A DNA stretch of 36,886 nt from a virus. A model generated the notes under the pieces. The model saw nothing but the letters and a program-made list of their open reading frames with translations, had not been told where the DNA came from and did not search any database. The stretch is from IMG/VR virus record IMGVR_UViG_3300021185_001380, positions 1 through 36,886 of that record; one strand, 5' to 3'. Below are positions 7,564-36,780 of this stretch, piece after piece (positions within the stretch are counted from its first letter, which is position 1; each line of letters opens with the position of its first letter). A program made the position numbers and the translations under genes.

Positions 7564-10500
7564 CTAATTATCTGTTTTTATTCGAGATGTACCTGCATAA
7601 TTTACGGGGTTTCCTCCGGTTAATATAGAAGCAGTACAAGAGGCATTAACTCCTGGATCAGTTAAATTTATTATTATTTTACCATCTAAGCTACTAAATC
7701 CTGCTGCAAAAGATAAAAACCCGACATTAGCAGAAAGATTAGACCAAGCTAGCGCTCCTATGTTAGGCGTATTACTTCTGTCAAGCCTAAAGTTTATATA
7801 TTCTGCAGAATCAGAAGCAGGTTTGTATACAGTTGATAAACTTGAATCAGTAAAAAACTGACCCACATACTCACCATAAGGAGTCTCAGCATATAAAACA
7901 TTGCTAGTAGATATAGTATCTGTAGTCAATGTGTTGCTTGATTCCGCAGATCTAAAGTATTTATAAGAACTTTGATTACCTCCGTTTTGCCCTTGCCAGG
8001 GTACACAAGCTGGATTATGTAAATCGTCTAACTGTACCCACCCTACCACAGCATTCTGCCCGTTAGTTCCGCTGATTTTTTCTAAATCTTTTATAATAAT
8101 AGCGTATTCTATAGGTTGCCCGTTAGACTCATTAGCAAAAGCTAAATAATTAATAGCTCTAACGTCAGATAACCATTTATTATTAGAGGCGGTGTTACCT
8201 GCTATGTTAAGAGTAAGTCCATAATTAGGTGTGTTCCATATAGGAGTATCTATTTGACTTGCTCCTATGTTATTGGTGAACCCCGCTTGATTATATTCTT
8301 GCAATCTTAAAACAGGGTTCCAGGTAGAATTTCCTTGAACTCTATAGTAATATTTAGTTGAACCAGAATTAAAGCTAGAACTAGAACTTGAATCAGCAAG
8401 TTGCTTAAAATTAGAACTAAGGGCTACTGTTCCTTGTTTGTGAGGCCCTGTTCCTAATCTATTAATACTTGTTATTCCTGAACCTATACCAGTAAAATCA
8501 CTAGTGTTTAACACACTATTGGCTATGTACCATATCCCGGAAACTTTGCCGCCAGATCCATTAGTAGTAGTTTTTATTGTACCAGCTGTATTTGCGGCGG
8601 GATCAAATATACAGTTAGAATTTTTTAATTCTGTATTAAGCTCTGCATAGCCTATAGTTATAGATGTAGTACGTGTTACACTACGTTGTTTATAATCATT
8701 AGACCCCGTTGACGGGAACGTAACGCCATTCGCATCTGTTACAGTAATGTCTACAGTATATGTTCCATTTGGATTACCTTCAAAATTACCATCACCTGCA
8801 ATCGCTTGTGTAATTTCACCATTATATTTATCCATTTCCCAATTATCTGGGTATGTGCCTCCGGTAATAGTATACTCAAGTTGAGATCTATTTTGTGCCG
8901 TGTAGCCACTACCATTTTTAGGATTTGCTGTTGCCCATTTTCCAGTAGCACCTAAAGCAGGAAGAATTATCCTTGTATCTTTTGTAGTGGGAAAGTTAGA
9001 TATTCGTGTGTATGTAGGAGCTATATTTTTTAAAGCACCAAAACCTTCTATTTGACCAGCTAGAGTCAGATCGCTAACATCACCGTCACTTGTAGTGACT
9101 CGTATAATAAACGAATAAACATCTAATGTACGACTGTCAGAACCGAATACCATTGGATTATCTCCTATATACCTTATTTTGTATTCTCCTGCATTGGAAC
9201 CTGTCCCTGAAAACAATTCAAATAACTCTACGCTATCACCGTTGCCGTTTGTTTGTGAAATTAATTCAGCCGTTGTAGGCGTTGAATAAACATCTCCTTC
9301 CACATTAACTGGTTCAAAAAACGATGTAGTTACAAAAGTTCCAGCAGCAGTAGTTTCATCAAAAACCCAAGTTACATCTTTAAATGAAGTAGCTCCCCCC
9401 GATCCGGAAAGAACATCCGCGTTTAAGTCTACAATTAAACCCTCACTAGCTGTTTCCCAATATATATCTAGCAATGACTCCACTGGTTCTGTTTCATAAA
9501 CCGCTAAATATGGTTCCATGTTTTCGGCTCCCGCCGGTAAATTAAGTGAACCGTTGGCTGCTATGTTTAAAGACGTTGCTCCTATAGGTTTATCAACTGT
9601 GGAAATTCTTGATATTAACGGATTTGTATCTATTTGATAAAAGGCTTTGTTTCCAATTCCTGGGCCTGTATTTATAGCAGCAGGTGGAGCCATAGAATAA
9701 CCATTAGATAAATCGGAGTACCCCATATTTACCTCTTTAGCTCTAGCTATAGCAGTCGATGTATGAGATATTGCAGTTTTACCCTCAGAATTAATTCTAG
9801 CATAATATTGGCTGTTGTAAGGTATTGAAGAATTCGCTCCGCTTGCAACCGTCATTATATTTGTTACTCTACCATACAATGTAACAGAGCTTCTATATTG
9901 TTTTTGATCAGGCCCTACATCCGCTAAATCTCTAGGTATTTTATTAATGTTATCATTAAATAATACTGCAAAAGCAGTAAGATTTGTTTCATCTGTAGGA
10001 AACAACCCATTATCAATTCCTCCCGCAACATTTGGGTTAGTTGGCATATTAGTAGCCCCGCTTTGGCCAGGATAGCCATTAAGTATTCCGGGCAAATATA
10101 CATTGTAATATTCTTGTTGTGTTTGTTTTACTACTATCTTATAACTATACCAACCTAAATCATTTATAGTATAAGCAAATTTTAAATCAGGGGTTCCTGA
10201 AGTTAAGTTATCGGCTCTAAGATAAACATCATTTACTCTACCTGTCGTAGTAATTGTGTAAGTTTGCCCACCTCCTGATGGACCAGTTCTATTCGTTACT
10301 TTAACAAAATCCTCATAAGCCCCCCTCATATAATCGCCTATATTAGGAATATGATTATTGTTAGGGAAAGGAGTACTGTTTAAAGAAAATGTATATGTAG
10401 AATCGTCAACAATTGTTGCGTTACCATTAATAGCAAATCCATCTCCTGTGCCAGTCCCTGCTTTTTGTTTTAAAGCATATAATCCAGGAGTACCTTCTGC

Positions 10501-12210
10501 TAAGTTTCTTGTTGAAGTTATTTCTGAATTTACTAAAACCATTATAGCATCACCGAACCAATTTTTAACACTTGTATCTGTAGCAGCTATATCGTAAGGG
10601 CTATATATTGTTGATCCAAAATAAAACTGGCCCCCACTAGTTATTCCATTATCTACAGAAGATAAAATAACCGGGGACTGCCTACCAAATTTATCTGCTA
10701 AAACAAATCCTACTTGATAATTTCTATTTCTTTTAACCGAATGGTTAGGGTATTCAATCCAGTTATTATATTTGCCTGTACTACTTTTTTGGGATATTCT
10801 ACAGTTATAATTTATATTTGCAGGCGGAGTGTGCTGATCTCTATAATTGCCGTAAATTATTCTGTTTCCTGAAGTTTCTTGAGCAAAAGCTCTTACAGGA
10901 ACTTTATCGTACACCCTAACAGTTTGCGCTTCTGGCAAAGCTTTATAAGGCTTACGTGATTGATAATCGTATGTATAATAATTATTGTTGCCGCTAGCTC
11001 CTGATATTTTACCAGCAGTTATACTTTCTAAAACTTTAACCGCCACAGCATCACTCTCTCTAAATAATATTTCTAATTCACTTATTTTGTAATCACGTAT
11101 TATTCTATTAGCGTTTGTAGGTAATGGAATAACTAAACCTATATTCTGTACTAAGTTTTCCATAAATCTTACAACCGTAGATTGATATGCCGCGTCTTCA
11201 TCTCCGTTTAAAAAATAACCGTACTGTTTAGGTATATACGCTATTTGAGTAAAAGGGGCCATTAAAGAATACTCATTATCGTCATACTTAAACCTATAGC
11301 TAAATCTAACAAATTTATCTTCTAAATAGTCTGGATCACCAGGCCAGGTAGAATCATTTGTTTTATTAGTCATTGTTGACATAATTAAAGATATATAAGT
11401 ACTTGCAGCCGGAGGAGGAGAAAAGGAAGGAGAAACAAGAACCCTAGTAACAGCGCCCACTGAAACAACTCCTGTTACTTTTATATGATCCAAACCTGTT
11501 ATAGCGGTAGATTGCTCCGCTGAAACAACAGTTGCGCCTATAAAAGGAGTTAGAGCCGCAACTTGGTTTCCATCCAATGTAAAATATCCAGTCGTAGAAG
11601 CAACTGAGGCAGAAGTTTCTACATCAATTCTATTATATAATTGTATGGCCTGATAAGGGCTATATTTTGCTACAGAAATTTGGTGTTCTTGAGTGTAATA
11701 TTCTTCTGTTCGACCATCTGATGTAGTGCCTGAAAATAAAGCAAAATTTATTTTTCGGGGCTGGTTTCTATTATCTGTCCAAAATAATAAATTTTCAATT
11801 AAATTAATACCTATTATTCTATTTGTTGTAGAAAAATTTAAAAATTCTCCTTGGACTAAAAGGGTGTAATCTCCTGAAACATTGTTATAAACATAAATGT
11901 AGTGTTTAGATGTAGATGGAGCATCTGTAGGACTACTAGGATTTGGATCAGTATAATCTGTTAGAAAAACAAATATTTGATCCGTAGAGTTGCTGTTTTT
12001 TATACCTATTATAGTAAGACCAGTTCCAATATTTGTTCCTGCAACTAAATCATTACCTATTATATTTTCTAAAGCACCAACATCGTCATCTTCGGATCTA
12101 CCAACAGATATATTCCGAGCATCTCTATATTCACCGTTAGGCAATATTCTATCGTCAAGATCTTTATTCATCTTAGACTTTAGAAATGTGTTTTTTATTT
12201 GTTGAGCCAT
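7564..12210 (-). CDS. Giant tail muzzle/nozzle protein, 1548 aa
   Basis: The N-terminus (KMNKDLDDRILPNGEYRDAR, residues 13-32) is the start I associate with muzzle/nozzle beta-propeller proteins of podovirus tails. It is followed by repeated strands such as KNSNSTDQIFVFLTDYT and LIENLLFWTDNRNQPRKINF, typical of propeller blades. The central part is long and beta-rich. Around residues 1110-1165 is a cadherin/Ig-like module (WEMDKYNGEIT, then GTYTVDITVTDANG), probably surface-exposed. The C-terminal 300 residues are Ser/Asn/Gly-rich. No transmembrane or signal segment. It lies between a connector candidate (403 aa) and the 526-aa partner with near-zero spacing. It is the largest gene in the window and a likely site of host-contact variation. 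The fold assignment is by motif memory. Confidence 0.7.
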   Translation of the reverse strand: MAQQIKNTFLKSKMNKDLDDRILPNGEYRDARNISVGRSEDDDVGALENIIGNDLVAGTNIGTGLTIIGIKNSNSTDQIFVFLTDYTDPNPSSPTDAPSTSKHYIYVYNNVSGDYTLLVQGEFLNFSTTNRIIGINLIENLLFWTDNRNQPRKINFALFSGTTSDGRTEEYYTQEHQISVAKYSPYQAIQLYNRIDVETSASVASTTGYFTLDGNQVAALTPFIGATVVSAEQSTAITGLDHIKVTGVVSVGAVTRVLVSPSFSPPPAASTYISLIMSTMTNKTNDSTWPGDPDYLEDKFVRFSYRFKYDDNEYSLMAPFTQIAYIPKQYGYFLNGDEDAAYQSTVVRFMENLVQNIGLVIPLPTNANRIIRDYKISELEILFRESDAVAVKVLESITAGKISGASGNNNYYTYDYQSRKPYKALPEAQTVRVYDKVPVRAFAQETSGNRIIYGNYRDQHTPPANINYNCRISQKSSTGKYNNWIEYPNHSVKRNRNYQVGFVLADKFGRQSPVILSSVDNGITSGGQFYFGSTIYSPYDIAATDTSVKNWFGDAIMVLVNSEITSTRNLAEGTPGLYALKQKAGTGTGDGFAINGNATIVDDSTYTFSLNSTPFPNNNHIPNIGDYMRGAYEDFVKVTNRTGPSGGGQTYTITTTGRVNDVYLRADNLTSGTPDLKFAYTINDLGWYSYKIVVKQTQQEYYNVYLPGILNGYPGQSGATNMPTNPNVAGGIDNGLFPTDETNLTAFAVLFNDNINKIPRDLADVGPDQKQYRSSVTLYGRVTNIMTVASGANSSIPYNSQYYARINSEGKTAISHTSTAIARAKEVNMGYSDLSNGYSMAPPAAINTGPGIGNKAFYQIDTNPLISRISTVDKPIGATSLNIAANGSLNLPAGAENMEPYLAVYETEPVESLLDIYWETASEGLIVDLNADVLSGSGGATSFKDVTWVFDETTAAGTFVTTSFFEPVNVEGDVYSTPTTAELISQTNGNGDSVELFELFSGTGSNAGEYKIRYIGDNPMVFGSDSRTLDVYSFIIRVTTSDGDVSDLTLAGQIEGFGALKNIAPTYTRISNFPTTKDTRIILPALGATGKWATANPKNGSGYTAQNRSQLEYTITGGTYPDNWEMDKYNGEITQAIAGDGNFEGNPNGTYTVDITVTDANGVTFPSTGSNDYKQRSVTRTTSITIGYAELNTELKNSNCIFDPAANTAGTIKTTTNGSGGKVSGIWYIANSVLNTSDFTGIGSGITSINRLGTGPHKQGTVALSSNFKQLADSSSSSSFNSGSTKYYYRVQGNSTWNPVLRLQEYNQAGFTNNIGASQIDTPIWNTPNYGLTLNIAGNTASNNKWLSDVRAINYLAFANESNGQPIEYAIIIKDLEKISGTNGQNAVVGWVQLDDLHNPACVPWQGQNGGNQSSYKYFRSAESSNTLTTDTISTSNVLYAETPYGEYVGQFFTDSSLSTVYKPASDSAEYINFRLDRSNTPNIGALAWSNLSANVGFLSFAAGFSSLDGKIIINLTDPGVNASCTASILTGGNPVNYAGTSRIKTDN

Positions 12211-28672: not shown

Positions 28673-30211
28673 TTATCCTCTTACGTTAGACATAACACAG
28701 TTGGTAGACAATATAGTCGAAGCAACTGAGGCAGCATTTTTTAATGCTGACTTTGTAACTAGTACAGGATCTATAATACCTGCTTTAAACATATTTACTG
28801 TTTTTCCAGTTTCAACATTAACGCCAAAATCTTTTTTATTTATATGCTCATATTCTAATCCTGCATTTTTCATAATCGTTTTGCAAGGATAATACAAAGC
28901 TTCAATAACTAGTTCTTCACTAGATGACTTTGGTTTTATACTTCTGATTGCATTAATTAGTGCAACTCCGCCACCGGCAACCACACCTTCTTTTATAGCA
29001 GCTTTAGTTGCGCATATTGCATCTTCAACTCTATCTTTCTTTTCATTTAATTCAACCTCAGAATTACCTCCAACTTTTACTATTGCAAGTTTTGCAGCTA
29101 GCATAGCTAATCTTTTTTCAAGTTTAACTATTTTGTTGGGATTGCTTTCTATAAGCAATTGTTCTTTTATACTTTCAATAATTAGTTTAATATCTTCTGA
29201 TTGTTCTTCGGCTACTTGAAAAACTGTATCTTTAAACGTTGATACCGCCTTAATACAAGTGCCTAAACAATCTAAATCAATTAAATCTAAATCATCACCT
29301 AAATTTTCGCTTACTACAGTTGCTCCTGTTAATAAAGCTAAATCATCAAATATTTCTTTTCTATTAACACCGTGTGTAGGTGCTGGAACTATATTAACTT
29401 TTATAGAACCTTTGTTTTTATTCATTGCAAGGGCTGCGGCAACTTTAGGATCAACGTCTCCAACTATAAGTAGTGCCAGGTTATTTTTTATAACATGTTC
29501 TAATATAGTTTGTATTTGTCTAATCGTGTCTACCATCGAATCAACTAATAATATTTTTGGATTATTCAGCTCTACTGTATTGCTTGCGTGATTAGTTACG
29601 AAATGATTATTAGTAAAACCTTTTTCATACTGCACCCCCTCAACTACCTCTATACTCGTATTCCCGTCTTGTGATGTTTCCATCATAACAACGCCCGTTA
29701 AATCCACTGCTCTGTATGCATCGGCAATTAGTTTACCCAGTTCAGCATCATTGTTAGTAGATATAGTAGCCACTTCGTCGATCATATCACCATTAACTGG
29801 TTTAGCCTGCTTTTCTAAGTGAGTTAAAGTTTTATCTATAATATTATTTATTGCATCTCTTTTTTGTCTGCTAGTAAATTTCATAGGCGATTTAGCAAAC
29901 TCCTTTAGTATTGCATAAGCCAATACGGTAGAAGTTGTTGTTCCGTCTCCGGCTTCCGCTACTGTTCTTCTAGCTGCTTGTTTAACTAGTGATGCTCCCA
30001 TATTTTCTACAGGATCTAATAGTACAGATAATTCGGCAACTGTTACGCCGTCTTTAGTTATTACAGGTATTCCCTGGGCATCCTCAAAAATTACGCATTC
30101 ACCGCCACCTCCTAATGTTGAGGCTACGGCTTCCGTAAGTGTTTCGATACCTTTAAACACTTTTTCTCTACCTTTGTCGCCAAAGCTAAATTGTTTTACT
30201 ATTTGATTCAT
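28673..30211 (-). CDS. groEL: GroEL chaperonin (Cpn60), 512 aa
   Basis: Clear Cpn60. ATP site: ITKDGVTVA (51-59) and AGDGTTTSTVLA (87-98), with the DGTTT phosphate loop at 89-93. The hydrolytic Asp equivalent to E. coli Asp398 is Asp397 in DRVEDAI. KEGVVAGGGVALI (407-419) and DPVLVTKSALKNAASVAS (481-498) close the equatorial domain. The apical domain (~190-375) is diverged: YEKGFTNNHFV replaces the E. coli GYLSPYF region, and APTHGVNRKE replaces APGFGDRRK. The protein stops at SNVRG with no Gly-Gly-Met tail. All catalytic residues seen are intact, so an active ring is expected. It has its own conserved promoter 11 bases upstream, and probably folds the capsid or tail proteins. Confidence 0.95.
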   Translation of the reverse strand: MNQIVKQFSFGDKGREKVFKGIETLTEAVASTLGGGGECVIFEDAQGIPVITKDGVTVAELSVLLDPVENMGASLVKQAARRTVAEAGDGTTTSTVLAYAILKEFAKSPMKFTSRQKRDAINNIIDKTLTHLEKQAKPVNGDMIDEVATISTNNDAELGKLIADAYRAVDLTGVVMMETSQDGNTSIEVVEGVQYEKGFTNNHFVTNHASNTVELNNPKILLVDSMVDTIRQIQTILEHVIKNNLALLIVGDVDPKVAAALAMNKNKGSIKVNIVPAPTHGVNRKEIFDDLALLTGATVVSENLGDDLDLIDLDCLGTCIKAVSTFKDTVFQVAEEQSEDIKLIIESIKEQLLIESNPNKIVKLEKRLAMLAAKLAIVKVGGNSEVELNEKKDRVEDAICATKAAIKEGVVAGGGVALINAIRSIKPKSSSEELVIEALYYPCKTIMKNAGLEYEHINKKDFGVNVETGKTVNMFKAGIIDPVLVTKSALKNAASVASTILSTNCVMSNVRG

Positions 30212-30221
30212 TTAATTAGAT

Positions 30222-30258
30222 TTTATTATATAATCACACGTAATTTTATAAAGCTACA
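30222..30258 (-). promoter_or_regulatory. Conserved leftward promoter-like motif, copy B (groEL promoter)
   Basis: The minus strand reads TGTAGCTTTATAAAATT, then ACGTGTGATTATATAATA. Spacing between TGTAG and ACGTGT equals that in copies A and C. The ATTATATAA end is about 15-20 bases before the groEL ATG, the same as in copy A relative to its gene, which fits a -10-like element with a short leader. Confidence 0.7.
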
Positions 30259-35009: not shown

Positions 35010-35045
35010 GTTATATATAATTACACGTTTTTTCCAAAAGCTACA
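35010..35045 (-). promoter_or_regulatory. Conserved leftward promoter-like motif, copy A (start of the whole leftward block)
   Basis: The minus strand reads TGTAGCTTTTGGAAAAA, then ACGTGTAATTATATATAAC. Spacing matches copies B and C. TATATATAA lies ~22-30 bases before the 34989 ATG. It is the only visible promoter upstream of the morphogenesis genes. Confidence 0.7.
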
Positions 35046-35253: not shown

Positions 35254-35287
35254 TGTATAGCAATAACGACACTCTATATATAATTAT
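35254..35287 (+). promoter_or_regulatory. Rightward early promoter-like motif, copy 1
   Basis: TGTATAGCAATAACGACAC followed by TCTATATATAATT. Contains one GTATAGCA unit (35255-35262), an AATAACGAC box and the TATATATAAT element. About 100 bases before the first rightward gene. Confidence 0.65.
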
Positions 35288-35303
35288 TATAAAGAAAATA
35301 ATT

Positions 35304-35331
35304 AAATAAATATAAAAATAAATATTAAATT
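35304..35331 (+). repeat. 28-base direct repeat, leader copy 1
   Basis: The same 28 bases (AAATAAATATAAAAATAA and then ATATTAAATT) recur at 36705-36732, each time in the leader following a rightward promoter. This indicates duplicated promoter-leader blocks. Confidence 0.7.
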
Positions 35332-35387
35332 AATTATAAAAATAAATAAAAAAATAAATTAATAAATTAAATTTAAAATTAAAAATT

Positions 35388-35576
35388 ATGCAAATATTAA
35401 AATTAAAAACTAGTCAGCCTAAAAATATATTAAATATTATAATAAATAAAAATATATTAAAGCATCCGATTCAAATTAATAATAAATTAATATTAATTAA
35501 TAAAAAAGATTTAAAAGAAGTTGATAAAATATTTAATAATAATTATTTAAAATATAAAATAATAAATATAAAATAA
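35388..35576 (+). CDS. Small early-type protein, 62 aa
   Basis: First rightward gene. MQILKLKTSQPKNILNIIIN, then KNILKHPIQINNKLILINKK, DLKEVDKIFNNNYLKYKIIN. The composition (Ile, Asn, Lys, Leu) is dictated by extreme AT bias. The ATG is preceded by TAAAATTAAAAATT, the same leader seen before the 46-aa gene and the last gene, which is the main support that it is translated. No family recognised. Confidence 0.55.
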   Translation: MQILKLKTSQPKNILNIIINKNILKHPIQINNKLILINKKDLKEVDKIFNNNYLKYKIINIK

Positions 35577-35629
35577 TAATAAATAAAAATAATAATAAAT
35601 AAATTAATAATAAATAAAAATAATAAATT

Positions 35630-35812
35630 ATGGATTTTACTAATAAAATAATATTTGACGAAATTAATAAATGCTATCACATATATATATATTTAAATAA
35701 TAAATTATTTCATAGCTTTAGTGAAGAAAATAAAAATTATATAAATAATTATATAATAAATTTAAATAAAAATTTAAATGCTAATTTAATAAAATGGTGG
35801 AATAATTATTAA
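35630..35812 (+). CDS. Small early-type protein, 60 aa; paralogue of the 46-aa protein
   Basis: MDFTNKIIFDEINKCYHIYI, then YLNNKLFHSFSEENKNYINN and YIINLNKNLNANLIKWWNNY. Residues ~11-45 align with the 46-aa protein at 35982: K.(C/M)Y, LN, H.F.EE, N(Y/F)I, I..L. It lies ~50 bases after the 62-aa gene, probably on the same transcript, and is followed by a terminator hairpin. Function unknown. Confidence 0.55.
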   Translation: MDFTNKIIFDEINKCYHIYIYLNNKLFHSFSEENKNYINNYIINLNKNLNANLIKWWNNY

Positions 35813-35816
35813 AAGC

Positions 35817-35847
35817 TTGCGCGAGAAATCGCGTATAGCATTTTTTT
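35817..35847 (+). terminator. Rightward terminator with GAAA tetraloop
   Basis: TGCGCGA pairs with TCGCGTA (one G-T wobble) around a GAAA loop, extended at the base by GCT/AGC; then ATTTTTTT follows at 35840-35847. It starts 5 bases past the 60-aa gene stop. The 3' arm includes the GTATAGCA unit that also recurs near promoters. Confidence 0.75.
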
Positions 35848-35873
35848 ATTACGTGCGTATAGCATGTATAGCA
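35833..35873 (+). repeat. GTATAGCA repeats before early promoter 2
   Basis: Exact units at 35833-35840, 35857-35864 and 35866-35873. The same octamer occurs at 35255, 36593 and 36637, with a variant GCATAGCA at 36625. Always just upstream of or at a rightward promoter, so a binding site for a regulator or polymerase is likely. Confidence 0.7.
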
Positions 35874-35898
35874 AAAACGGCACTGTATATATAATAAA
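35865..35898 (+). promoter_or_regulatory. Rightward early promoter-like motif, copy 2
   Basis: TGTATAGCAAAAACGGCACT, then GTATATATAATAA. AAAAACGG box and TATATATAATA element spaced as in copy 3. About 85 bases upstream of the 46-aa gene. Confidence 0.7.
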
Positions 35899-35981
35899 TA
35901 TGAAGTTAATAATAATAATAATATTATTAATAATAATTAAAATAAATTATAAATTAAATTAAAAATTAAAAATTAAAAATT

Positions 35982-36122
35982 ATGTTTGAATTCACAATCA
36001 ATTACTCAAAAGAAGAAAAAATGTATGATGTACTAACAAAATTAAATGGAGAGTATCACAATCATTTTCATGAAGAAGATATAAACTTCATAAGAGATCA
36101 TATAAAGTACTTAGTTAGCTAA
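35982..36122 (+). CDS. Small early-type protein, 46 aa
   Basis: MFEFTINYSKEEKMYDVLTK, then LNGEYHNHFHEEDINFIRDH and IKYLVS. Leader TAAAAATTAAAAATT directly before the ATG. It has less AT-forced composition than the 60-aa paralogue and a His-rich centre (HNHFHEED). Its TAA at 36120-36122 is followed by another promoter-like motif. Unknown function; tiny early phage proteins often bind host polymerase or other host factors, but nothing here shows this. Confidence 0.65.
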   Translation: MFEFTINYSKEEKMYDVLTKLNGEYHNHFHEEDINFIRDHIKYLVS

Positions 36123-36125
36123 GTA

Positions 36126-36155
36126 TTTTAAAAACGACGTATAATATATAATAAT
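36126..36155 (+). promoter_or_regulatory. Rightward early promoter-like motif, copy 4
   Basis: TTTTAAAAACGACGTATAAT, then ATATAATAAT. Has the AAAAACGAC box and TATATAATA element but no GTATAGCA units. Located between the 46-aa and 25-aa genes. Confidence 0.55.
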
Positions 36156-36179
36156 AATGTAACTAATAAAAACTATAAT

Positions 36180-36257
36180 ATGAAAAATGCAATTATCAAA
36201 ATTAAAAAAGTAATGTCTAATCTGGGAGCTGCTGCAGCTTTCGCAATCCGAAACTAA
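36180..36257 (+). CDS. Tiny early-type peptide, 25 aa
   Basis: MKNAIIKIKKVMSNLG, then AAAAFAIRN. Amphipathic and basic at the start, apolar in the middle. It would form a short membrane-active or binding helix. It begins 25-30 bases after promoter copy 4 and ends 1 base before the next ATG, so it is the leading gene of a three-gene unit. Could also be a leader peptide. Confidence 0.5.
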   Translation: MKNAIIKIKKVMSNLGAAAAFAIRN

Positions 36258-36258
36258 T

Positions 36259-36363
36259 ATGAAAAATTACAATGAAGAGTACCTGTACACACAAGCAATG
36301 AACTATGACTACGAACTAGCACTCGCAGTAGAATATCTTAACTCACTAACACAAATTAATTAA
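36259..36363 (+). CDS. Tiny early-type protein, 34 aa
   Basis: MKNYNEEYLYTQAMNYDYEL, then ALAVEYLNSLTQIN. Acidic and Tyr-rich helix. One base gap from the preceding stop and one base to the next ATG. Codon use is much less AT-forced than in the 62- and 60-aa genes. No family. Confidence 0.55.
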   Translation: MKNYNEEYLYTQAMNYDYELALAVEYLNSLTQIN

Positions 36364-36364
36364 T

Positions 36365-36517
36365 ATGTATCAAACTAATTCACAAGCATGGGATGAGGTT
36401 ATGCGAGGCATAGCTGAGTCTGAACGAAGAACCCAGATCTGCCAGGATATGTTCGGCCAGGATAACTTAAAAGGACTAACTCCAGAGCAGCAAGATCTGT
36501 TCTGGGCTTCAGTCTAG
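36365..36517 (+). CDS. Tiny early-type protein, 50 aa
   Basis: MYQTNSQAWDEVMRGIAESE, then RRTQICQDMFGQDNLKGLTP and EQQDLFWASV. Helical and acidic, with no membrane segment. Compositionally balanced, so it is clearly coding. Third gene in the unit from 36180. Followed within 6 bases by the GC-rich RNA element. Confidence 0.65.
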   Translation: MYQTNSQAWDEVMRGIAESERRTQICQDMFGQDNLKGLTPEQQDLFWASV

Positions 36518-36591
36518 CGCATCGGACCTTGGTGTGAGGTGGGATGACCTCAGCTAATTGACCTCGGAGGTAACCAGCCGGGGTCCGGCTG
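36518..36591 (+). ncRNA. GC-rich structured RNA element with alternative pairings
   Basis: In an AT-rich arm this 74-base stretch is GC-rich and dense in inverted repeats. TGAGGT (36535-36540) pairs with ACCTCA (36547-36552); ACCT (36561-36564) with AGGT (36568-36571); CGGACC (36523-36528) with GGTCCG (36582-36587) closes them as a three-way junction. The last stem competes with a perfect 7-bp hairpin CAGCCGG/CCGGCTG (36575-36591). So two exclusive folds exist. The T-run comes 9 bases after the hairpin (36601-36607). May be an attenuator, a stabilising 3' end or a small RNA. Confidence 0.5.
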
Positions 36592-36592
36592 C

Positions 36593-36644
36593 GTATAGCA
36601 TTTTTTTACTCGATCGCAAAATGTGCATAGCATTGTGTATAGCA
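36593..36644 (+). repeat. GTATAGCA repeats before early promoter 3
   Basis: Units at 36593-36600, 36625-36632 (variant GCATAGCA) and 36637-36644, spaced much as in the block at 35833-35873. The first is followed by seven T in both blocks. Confidence 0.7.
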
Positions 36645-36670
36645 AAAACGACACTATATATATAATATAA
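36636..36670 (+). promoter_or_regulatory. Rightward early promoter-like motif, copy 3
   Basis: TGTATAGCAAAAACGACACT, then ATATATATAATATAA. The best match to the shared pattern. It drives the partial gene at the right edge through a ~160-base AT-rich leader. Confidence 0.7.
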
Positions 36671-36704
36671 ATGTAGTTAATAATAAATATAATTATTATA
36701 ATTA

Positions 36705-36732
36705 AAATAAATATAAAAATAAATATTAAATT
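36705..36732 (+). repeat. 28-base direct repeat, leader copy 2
   Basis: Identical to 35304-35331. Together with the promoter and start-codon context it shows that whole promoter-leader cassettes have been copied. Confidence 0.7.
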
Positions 36733-36750
36733 TAATTAATTTATATAAAA

Positions 36751-36780
36751 TAACTAAAACGACTATTAATATATAATATT
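36751..36780 (+). promoter_or_regulatory. Rightward early promoter-like motif, copy 5
   Basis: TAACTAAAACGACTATTAAT, then ATATAATATT. Has the AAAACGAC box and TATAATA element. About 45 bases before the ATG at 36825. Confidence 0.5.

Follow-up and report, generated by a model that had tools for sequence, protein, structure and literature searches.

Promoter-like sites in the rightward arm

The stretch of DNA analysed here (the window) is a 36.9-kb fragment of an uncultured podovirus, taken from an IMG/VR record. Its late arm runs leftward and encodes the terminase, portal, ejection-type proteins, GroEL/GroES and tail spike, and a rightward arm of small, very AT-rich genes starts at about 35.2 kb, with a GC content of 12.6% between 35.5 and 36.0 kb. 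The closest named relatives by terminase are MW202828 (63% identity), the Flavobacterium elemo phages (~44%) and Cellulophaga phages of the phi38:1 kind, and the host is therefore most likely a Bacteroidota bacterium. A megablast search with the right end of the window retrieved no near-identical named phage, and no tRNA genes were found in the window. The 1548-aa virion protein of the window (7564-12210, minus strand) has a 1652-aa relative at locus L218 (13788-18746, minus strand) with a match to the crAss muzzle family (Pfam crAss_MUZ, 7e-13), a hint that this virus group and the crAss-like phages have a tail machine in common.

A base-by-base check of the rightward arm revealed five copies of AWAACGRC followed by TATAAT, with ACG-N10-TATAAT invariant in 5/5. 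We refer to these as class I sites and, from their sequence, predict them to be promoters, one per small early transcription unit. They lie on the plus strand at 35263-35284 (promoter 1; box ATAACGAC, TATAAT at 35279-35284), 35874-35895 (promoter 2; AAAACGGC, 35890-35895), 36131-36152 (promoter 3; AAAACGAC, 36147-36152), 36645-36666 (promoter 4; AAAACGAC, 36661-36666) and 36756-36777 (promoter 5; AAAACGAC, 36772-36777). The original prediction of five box copies, each followed by a downstream TATA element, was borne out: the box is exactly AAAACGRC in the copies at 35874, 36131, 36645 and 36756, and carries one mismatch in the copy at 35263. Downstream of the box, three copies read TATATATAAT and two read AATATATAAT. 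As a null model we used 2000 dinucleotide shuffles of the AT-rich 1.85 kb that holds the five sites and six octamers; AACG-N10-TATAAT, seen five times, had a shuffle mean of 0.018, and none of the shuffles reached five.

The octamer, GTATAGCA, recurs on the same strand as these sites, with six copies in the window against 0.059 expected, a number reached by 0/2000 shuffles. One copy (35255-35262) abuts promoter 1. Three precede promoter 2, at 35833-35840 (after a hairpin, within the 18-mer GCGTATAGCATTTTTTTA), at 35857-35864 (in the block before the promoter) and at 35866-35873 (abutting it). Promoter 4 is preceded by copies at 36593-36600 (right after a structured-RNA candidate, again within GCGTATAGCATTTTTTTA) and 36637-36644 (abutting the promoter), and by the variant GCATAGCA at 36625-36632, which reads GTATAGCA in the sibling contigs G002 and G003 introduced below. 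Promoters 3 and 5 have no octamer before them. Three of the five sites are thus preceded by one, three, and two octamers plus a variant, as had been described; the similar octamer spacing claimed for the blocks at 35833 and 36593 holds for the shared 18-mer, but not for the outer (33 vs 44 nt) and inner (9 vs 12 nt) distances.

The structured-RNA candidate is a GC-rich stretch at 36517-36595 (plus strand), between a 50-aa ORF and promoter 4, and is conserved in G002 and G003. In the predicted fold (dG -37.3, z -2.6 for 36517-36612) a long stem encloses two hairpins; GTATAGCA and a T run come immediately afterwards. An Rfam search with 36517-36595 returned no match. Elsewhere, the early arm of the relative G013 (L124, ~1540-1640) contains a T-arm-like stretch, GTGGGTTCGAAACCCGC, with short flanking complementarity, in which ARAGORN calls no tRNA.

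Class I sites in sibling contigs and the wider clade

A scan with the exact pattern identified the sibling contig G001, which matches the window at 99.96% identity over 2471 bases and continues the early arm absent from the window. One strand of G001 holds 16 copies of AAAACG-N10-TATAAT, at 13 distinct places of which three recur at the contig end, and the opposite strand holds none, in keeping with the expectation that the motif would recur across the remaining early genes. In the further early arm of this contig, 11/11 class I sites are intergenic and in the sense direction, 4-278 nt before an ORF. A second contig, G002, is ~83% identical over 2.3 kb at the right end of the window and ~90% identical to G001 further on; it carries 12 sites on one strand versus 0 on the other. 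In G002 the box of promoter 1 reads AAAACGAC, while G001 and another sibling, G003, keep ATAACGAC. The class I layout in this lineage consists of an upstream element TATAnCA, the box AAAACGAY, and TATAAT 10 nt after the ACG.

Word counts made de novo in the early arms of four relatives whose terminases are 74-77% identical (G010, G013, G015 and G017) retrieved the same geometry, in the form of a box AATACGA, nine bases, and GATAAT. The spacing of 10 stands out in the tested relatives, and their opposite strand has no sites. We then counted clade-wide, in 80 contigs that encode a phage sigma homologue. The early-gene strand has 246 matches to WACG-N10-KATAAT against 6 on the opposite strand, with only 4 and 11 matches at gaps of 9 and 11; this combination of strand bias and fixed gap is the signature of a bipartite promoter. 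The strict pattern was unmatched in 18 of the 80 sigma-bearing loci, some of which are short or begin only beyond the early arm. At L105 (7270-7298, minus strand), the predicted start base of a class I site is the A of the ATG of a 160-aa ORF, from which a leaderless mRNA of this ORF would be possible.

The box sequence varies from lineage to lineage, and its copies change together. Between G001 and G002, the base after ACGA changes from C to T in 7/10 aligned sites, and identity in the flanks reaches 99%. Similarly, the class I box is CATAACAAAAACGA in G041 and G044 versus TTGCAGACnaaTACG in G042 and G043, the sites standing at homologous genes and their flanks being unchanged. From these comparisons class I emerges as a predicted clade-wide promoter class, and the "rightward early promoter family" originally proposed finds strong support in its position and strand, its fixed spacing, and its recurrence and conservation.

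Phi38:1, the elemo phages and MW202828 are the nearest named relatives by terminase, yet no class I sites were found in their early arms, and de novo k-mers there give other repeats. MW202828 has, in place of class I, thirteen perfect 16-bp palindromes GTGTCGTTAACGACAC (L081/L082, ~44.5-60 kb), several of which lie 20-35 nt upstream of early start codons, and their half site, AACGACAC, is similar to the box of the window. In the early arm of phi38:1 (L117), AACACTATCA occurs 10 times against 0.09 expected, always on the early strand.

Our literature search found no description of early promoters in this phage group. The class I family, in altered form, appears to be common to many related marine-type bacterial viruses, and the ACG-N10-KATAAT rule should make early promoters predictable in uncultured relatives and allow early and late genes to be separated by sequence alone.

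Class II sites, the phage sigma factor and the reader of class I

A second class of sites follows the consensus TGTARnTTT-N11-YGTAATTATA, with a sigma70-like geometry of ~17 nt from the TTT-ending element to TATAWW. In the window, class II promoters are predicted at the head of the late arm (35011-35045, minus strand; TGTAGCTTT-N11-TGTAATTATA) and at 30229-30258 (minus strand), just upstream of the phage GroEL gene (28673-30211), where the site would imply separate control of the chaperonin gene. In G001, class II also precedes the Erf/exonuclease genes, immediately downstream of the sigma gene. G001-G003, G010, G013, G015 and G017 all have the class, and in most of them a site stands next to the end of the sigma gene; the strict pattern directly follows sigma in only 8/80 loci. 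A class II-like site in the early arm of G002 (L106, 11367, plus strand) points leftward.

The site at the head of the late arm is the leftward motif that had been likened to the rightward family, with the suggestion that one polymerase or activator may read both directions. The likeness itself is present, since 35031-35011 (minus strand) contains AAAACG...TATATAA. The common reader is not supported: class II copies in G010, G013 and G017 have no ACG box, while the class I box changes independently of the sigma gene, and we therefore treat the leftward site as a class separate from class I and dropped the shared ACG as a sign of one reader for both arms.

The phage sigma gene encodes 254 aa with sigma70 regions 2 and 4. 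The assignment is supported by phrog_351 (E 1.8e-17) and by profile matches to RpoD/SigA structures (E ~1e-10), with the Pfam matches to regions 2 and 4 just below cut-off; its AlphaFold model is poor and of low confidence (pLDDT 55.6). The gene is found alongside the two promoter classes; phi38:1, elemo and MW202828, where class I is lacking, do not have it. Location and covariation, discussed below, suggest that the phage sigma probably reads class II and not class I.

Which factor reads class I can be approached from several sides. Class I opens the early arm of each relative, so that its reader is needed at once, and the host primary sigma factor would be at hand. Bacteroidota sigma-A promoters have TTTG at -33 and TAnnTTTG at -7. 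Under such a reading the ACG would be a host-preferred upstream element, and a degenerate -7 box (TAnnnnTG for TAnnTTTG) would overlie TATAAT. Three of the five window sites and almost every G015 site do have a TG 5 nt after KATAAT, which fits the ends of the flavobacterial -7 box (PMC9723704). However, 0/5 window sites match TAnnTTTG itself, three keeping TAnnnnTG only, and class I differs from the host promoters in its ACG box, in having no TTTG at -33 and in the missing TTTG of the -7 box. Pattern scans found no TTG or TTTG 17-23 nt upstream of a -7 box in the early arm of the window, and no TTG-N17-23-TAnnTTTG at the head of early arms. Moreover, the box differs sharply among close relatives and the TG is missing at many later sites, and we regard a host reader as rather unlikely.

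The phage sigma itself, reading class I in a feed-forward loop of early expression, was the reader that we favoured first. Its co-occurrence with class I speaks for it, as does its divergence: between G001 and G002 the sigma proteins are 61.5% identical, while most neighbouring proteins are 84-100% identical, an outlier exactly where the box changed in concert. The idea was downgraded by G041 (L127) and G043 (L129), whose sigma proteins are 94.5% identical with an identical region 4.2. Their class I boxes are nevertheless different, and class II differs little between them; for this reason the sigma factor is probably not the class I reader. In addition, sigma would be needed before its own promoter could work. 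We now consider this explanation quite unlikely.

A third possibility is an RNA polymerase or factor delivered with the virion, as in N4 or crAss-like phages. For its late arm and ejection module, though not for its sigma, the nearer relative of G041 is G044, which has the same box type; across G041-G044, the box type tracks the virion-ejection genes (the giant protein and its neighbours) and not the early arm, and G041 encodes a homologue of the crAss muzzle protein. This association rests on one evolutionary event, though, and the giant virion proteins have neither the catalytic DxDGD nor conserved single-subunit RNA polymerase motifs, with no Pfam or PDB match, so we rejected a virion RNA polymerase in these proteins and hold virion delivery of this kind to be improbable as a full account. 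A 155-aa late protein looked promising as the box reader in four genomes, and was set aside as it is also present, in diverged form, in the T-box genomes G042 and G015. We identified no gene for the class I reader. The more likely reader is a factor that is not sigma, evolves fast and may be delivered with the virion. The concerted rewriting of boxes between near-identical early arms offers a natural experiment for finding it.

The octamer, a proposed early cascade and known phage systems

Four class I promoters at the start of the G001 arm, three of them in the window, are directly preceded by GTATAGCA, which here coincides with the upstream element TATAnCA of this lineage. The rest of the arm contains the opposite-strand form, TGCTATAC, in 11 copies over 12.8 kb, all kept in G002. 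TGCTATAC is the commonest 8-mer in the early ORFs, with nine copies spread over nine ORFs and at least two codon phases; 2000 synonymous shuffles gave a mean of 0.73 and a maximum of 5, so that the octamer is enriched beyond synonymous codon choice. Late ORFs have almost none, with 1 copy in 26.6 kb. Across the 80 sigma-bearing contigs we counted 291 sense versus 67 antisense copies, about one per early gene, while octamers of the same composition averaged 13.9 and the next commonest reached 99. The sense-strand octamer is a clade-wide signal.

As part of the promoter, the octamer stands only where the abutting copy forms the upstream element. Its place relative to promoters varies among the relatives, in either orientation, and in G013 it lies before promoters in the other orientation and in inverted repeats. 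Since it also lies inside early genes on the opposite strand, we treat it as mainly an independent element. It is most likely a binding site, oriented and distinct from the promoters, through which early transcription is modulated or shut off; by analogy, a stoperator-like oriented operator or an RNA signal fits best, and these are our leading ideas for its function.

Acting at the RNA level, putative small RNAs ending in GUAUAGCA, after a hairpin and U tract, would pair with UGCUAUAC once per early mRNA; they would end after GCGUAUAGCAUUUUUUU. GCGTATAGCATTTTTTTA twice follows an RNA hairpin or structured RNA, and the targets are complementary, sense and one per gene. On the other hand, G013 has ten sense copies of TGCTATAC and no GTATAGCA guide in the early arm examined, and this pairing scheme seems to us a doubtful one. 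That the octamers are replication-origin iterons beside incidental promoter-like boxes is highly improbable: three octamers do lie within 41 nt beside 12.6% GC DNA at the divergent region, but single octamers occur throughout the early arm and inside genes, and class I sites recur without them.

We therefore return to the reading that we consider probable, in which class I sites are early promoters of Bacteroidota-type podoviruses read by a non-sigma factor, the phage sigma drives class II, and the octamer is separate. TATAAT would be held by RNA polymerase and the ACG box, at about -28 to -21, read by a lineage-specific factor, and a common ACG-box reader would address the whole early gene set at once. 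The phage sigma would then drive class II before the recombination, GroEL and late genes, so that class I followed by class II would form an early-to-middle/late cascade, with the octamer GTATAGCA/TGCTATAC as an oriented binding signal that modulates or shuts off early transcription. The sites themselves are observed, with their spacing, strand bias, conservation and joint change, as is the enrichment of the octamer; transcript starts, timing, the identity of the reader and octamer function in this scheme are what we infer from sequence. A bolder version, which we put forward tentatively, would join an 11-bp asymmetric tag, DTGCTATACRY, present as one sense copy within the coding region of nearly every early gene, to a class I code read by a factor that is neither the host's nor the phage sigma and rewritten in concert. 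If true, DTGCTATACRY would represent a new oriented control system for early genes, at the DNA or RNA level, in a Bacteroidota podovirus clade, and the class I code would be fast-evolving, rewritten across all early promoters at lineage splits.

Several known systems resemble parts of this arrangement. In T4 middle promoters, the MotA box TGCTTTA lies 12 +/- 1 from a sigma70 -10 element and sigma is appropriated (PMC2988021). Class I is alike in its short asymmetric box at a fixed distance before an excellent -10, the lack of a canonical -35 and the use in many phage units (PMC2988021), but its box is AWACGA, with 9 nt from ACGA to the -10 and the box at about -28 to -21, and the sites sit at the earliest arm. 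No match to the MotA/AsiA families was found among the early proteins scanned, a search that highly diverged members could escape. Compared with E. coli-type sigma70 promoters, all five window sites have the TATAAT -10, but TATAGC or an unrelated AT-rich hexamer stands where a TTGACA-like -35 with a 17 +/- 1 spacer would be. Promoters of single-subunit phage RNA polymerases form a contiguous block of ~20 bp, unlike the two blocks and variable middle of class I, and the large proteins gave no RNA polymerase motif or family match.

Phage sigma cascades of the SPO1 kind encode a sigma factor in the early arm and use a second promoter class at middle and late genes. The early-arm sigma gene and class II sites follow the same plan, the sigma function here being presumed, but the promoter sequences are unrelated. 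For the octamer, the nearest parallel is found in the stoperators of cluster A mycobacteriophages, 13-bp asymmetric sites that are scattered, mostly in one orientation, with some in or near promoters (PMC6550527). Stoperators work through a cognate repressor that binds them and blocks elongation; no candidate gene for such a repressor of the octamer was identified. The octamer signal differs from stoperators in being an 11-bp RYGTATAGCAW, in the many sites that lie inside genes and in the promoter-proximal window copies that face the other way; it resembles them in that its sites are asymmetric, multiple, clade-wide and biased in orientation within early genes (291 vs 67).
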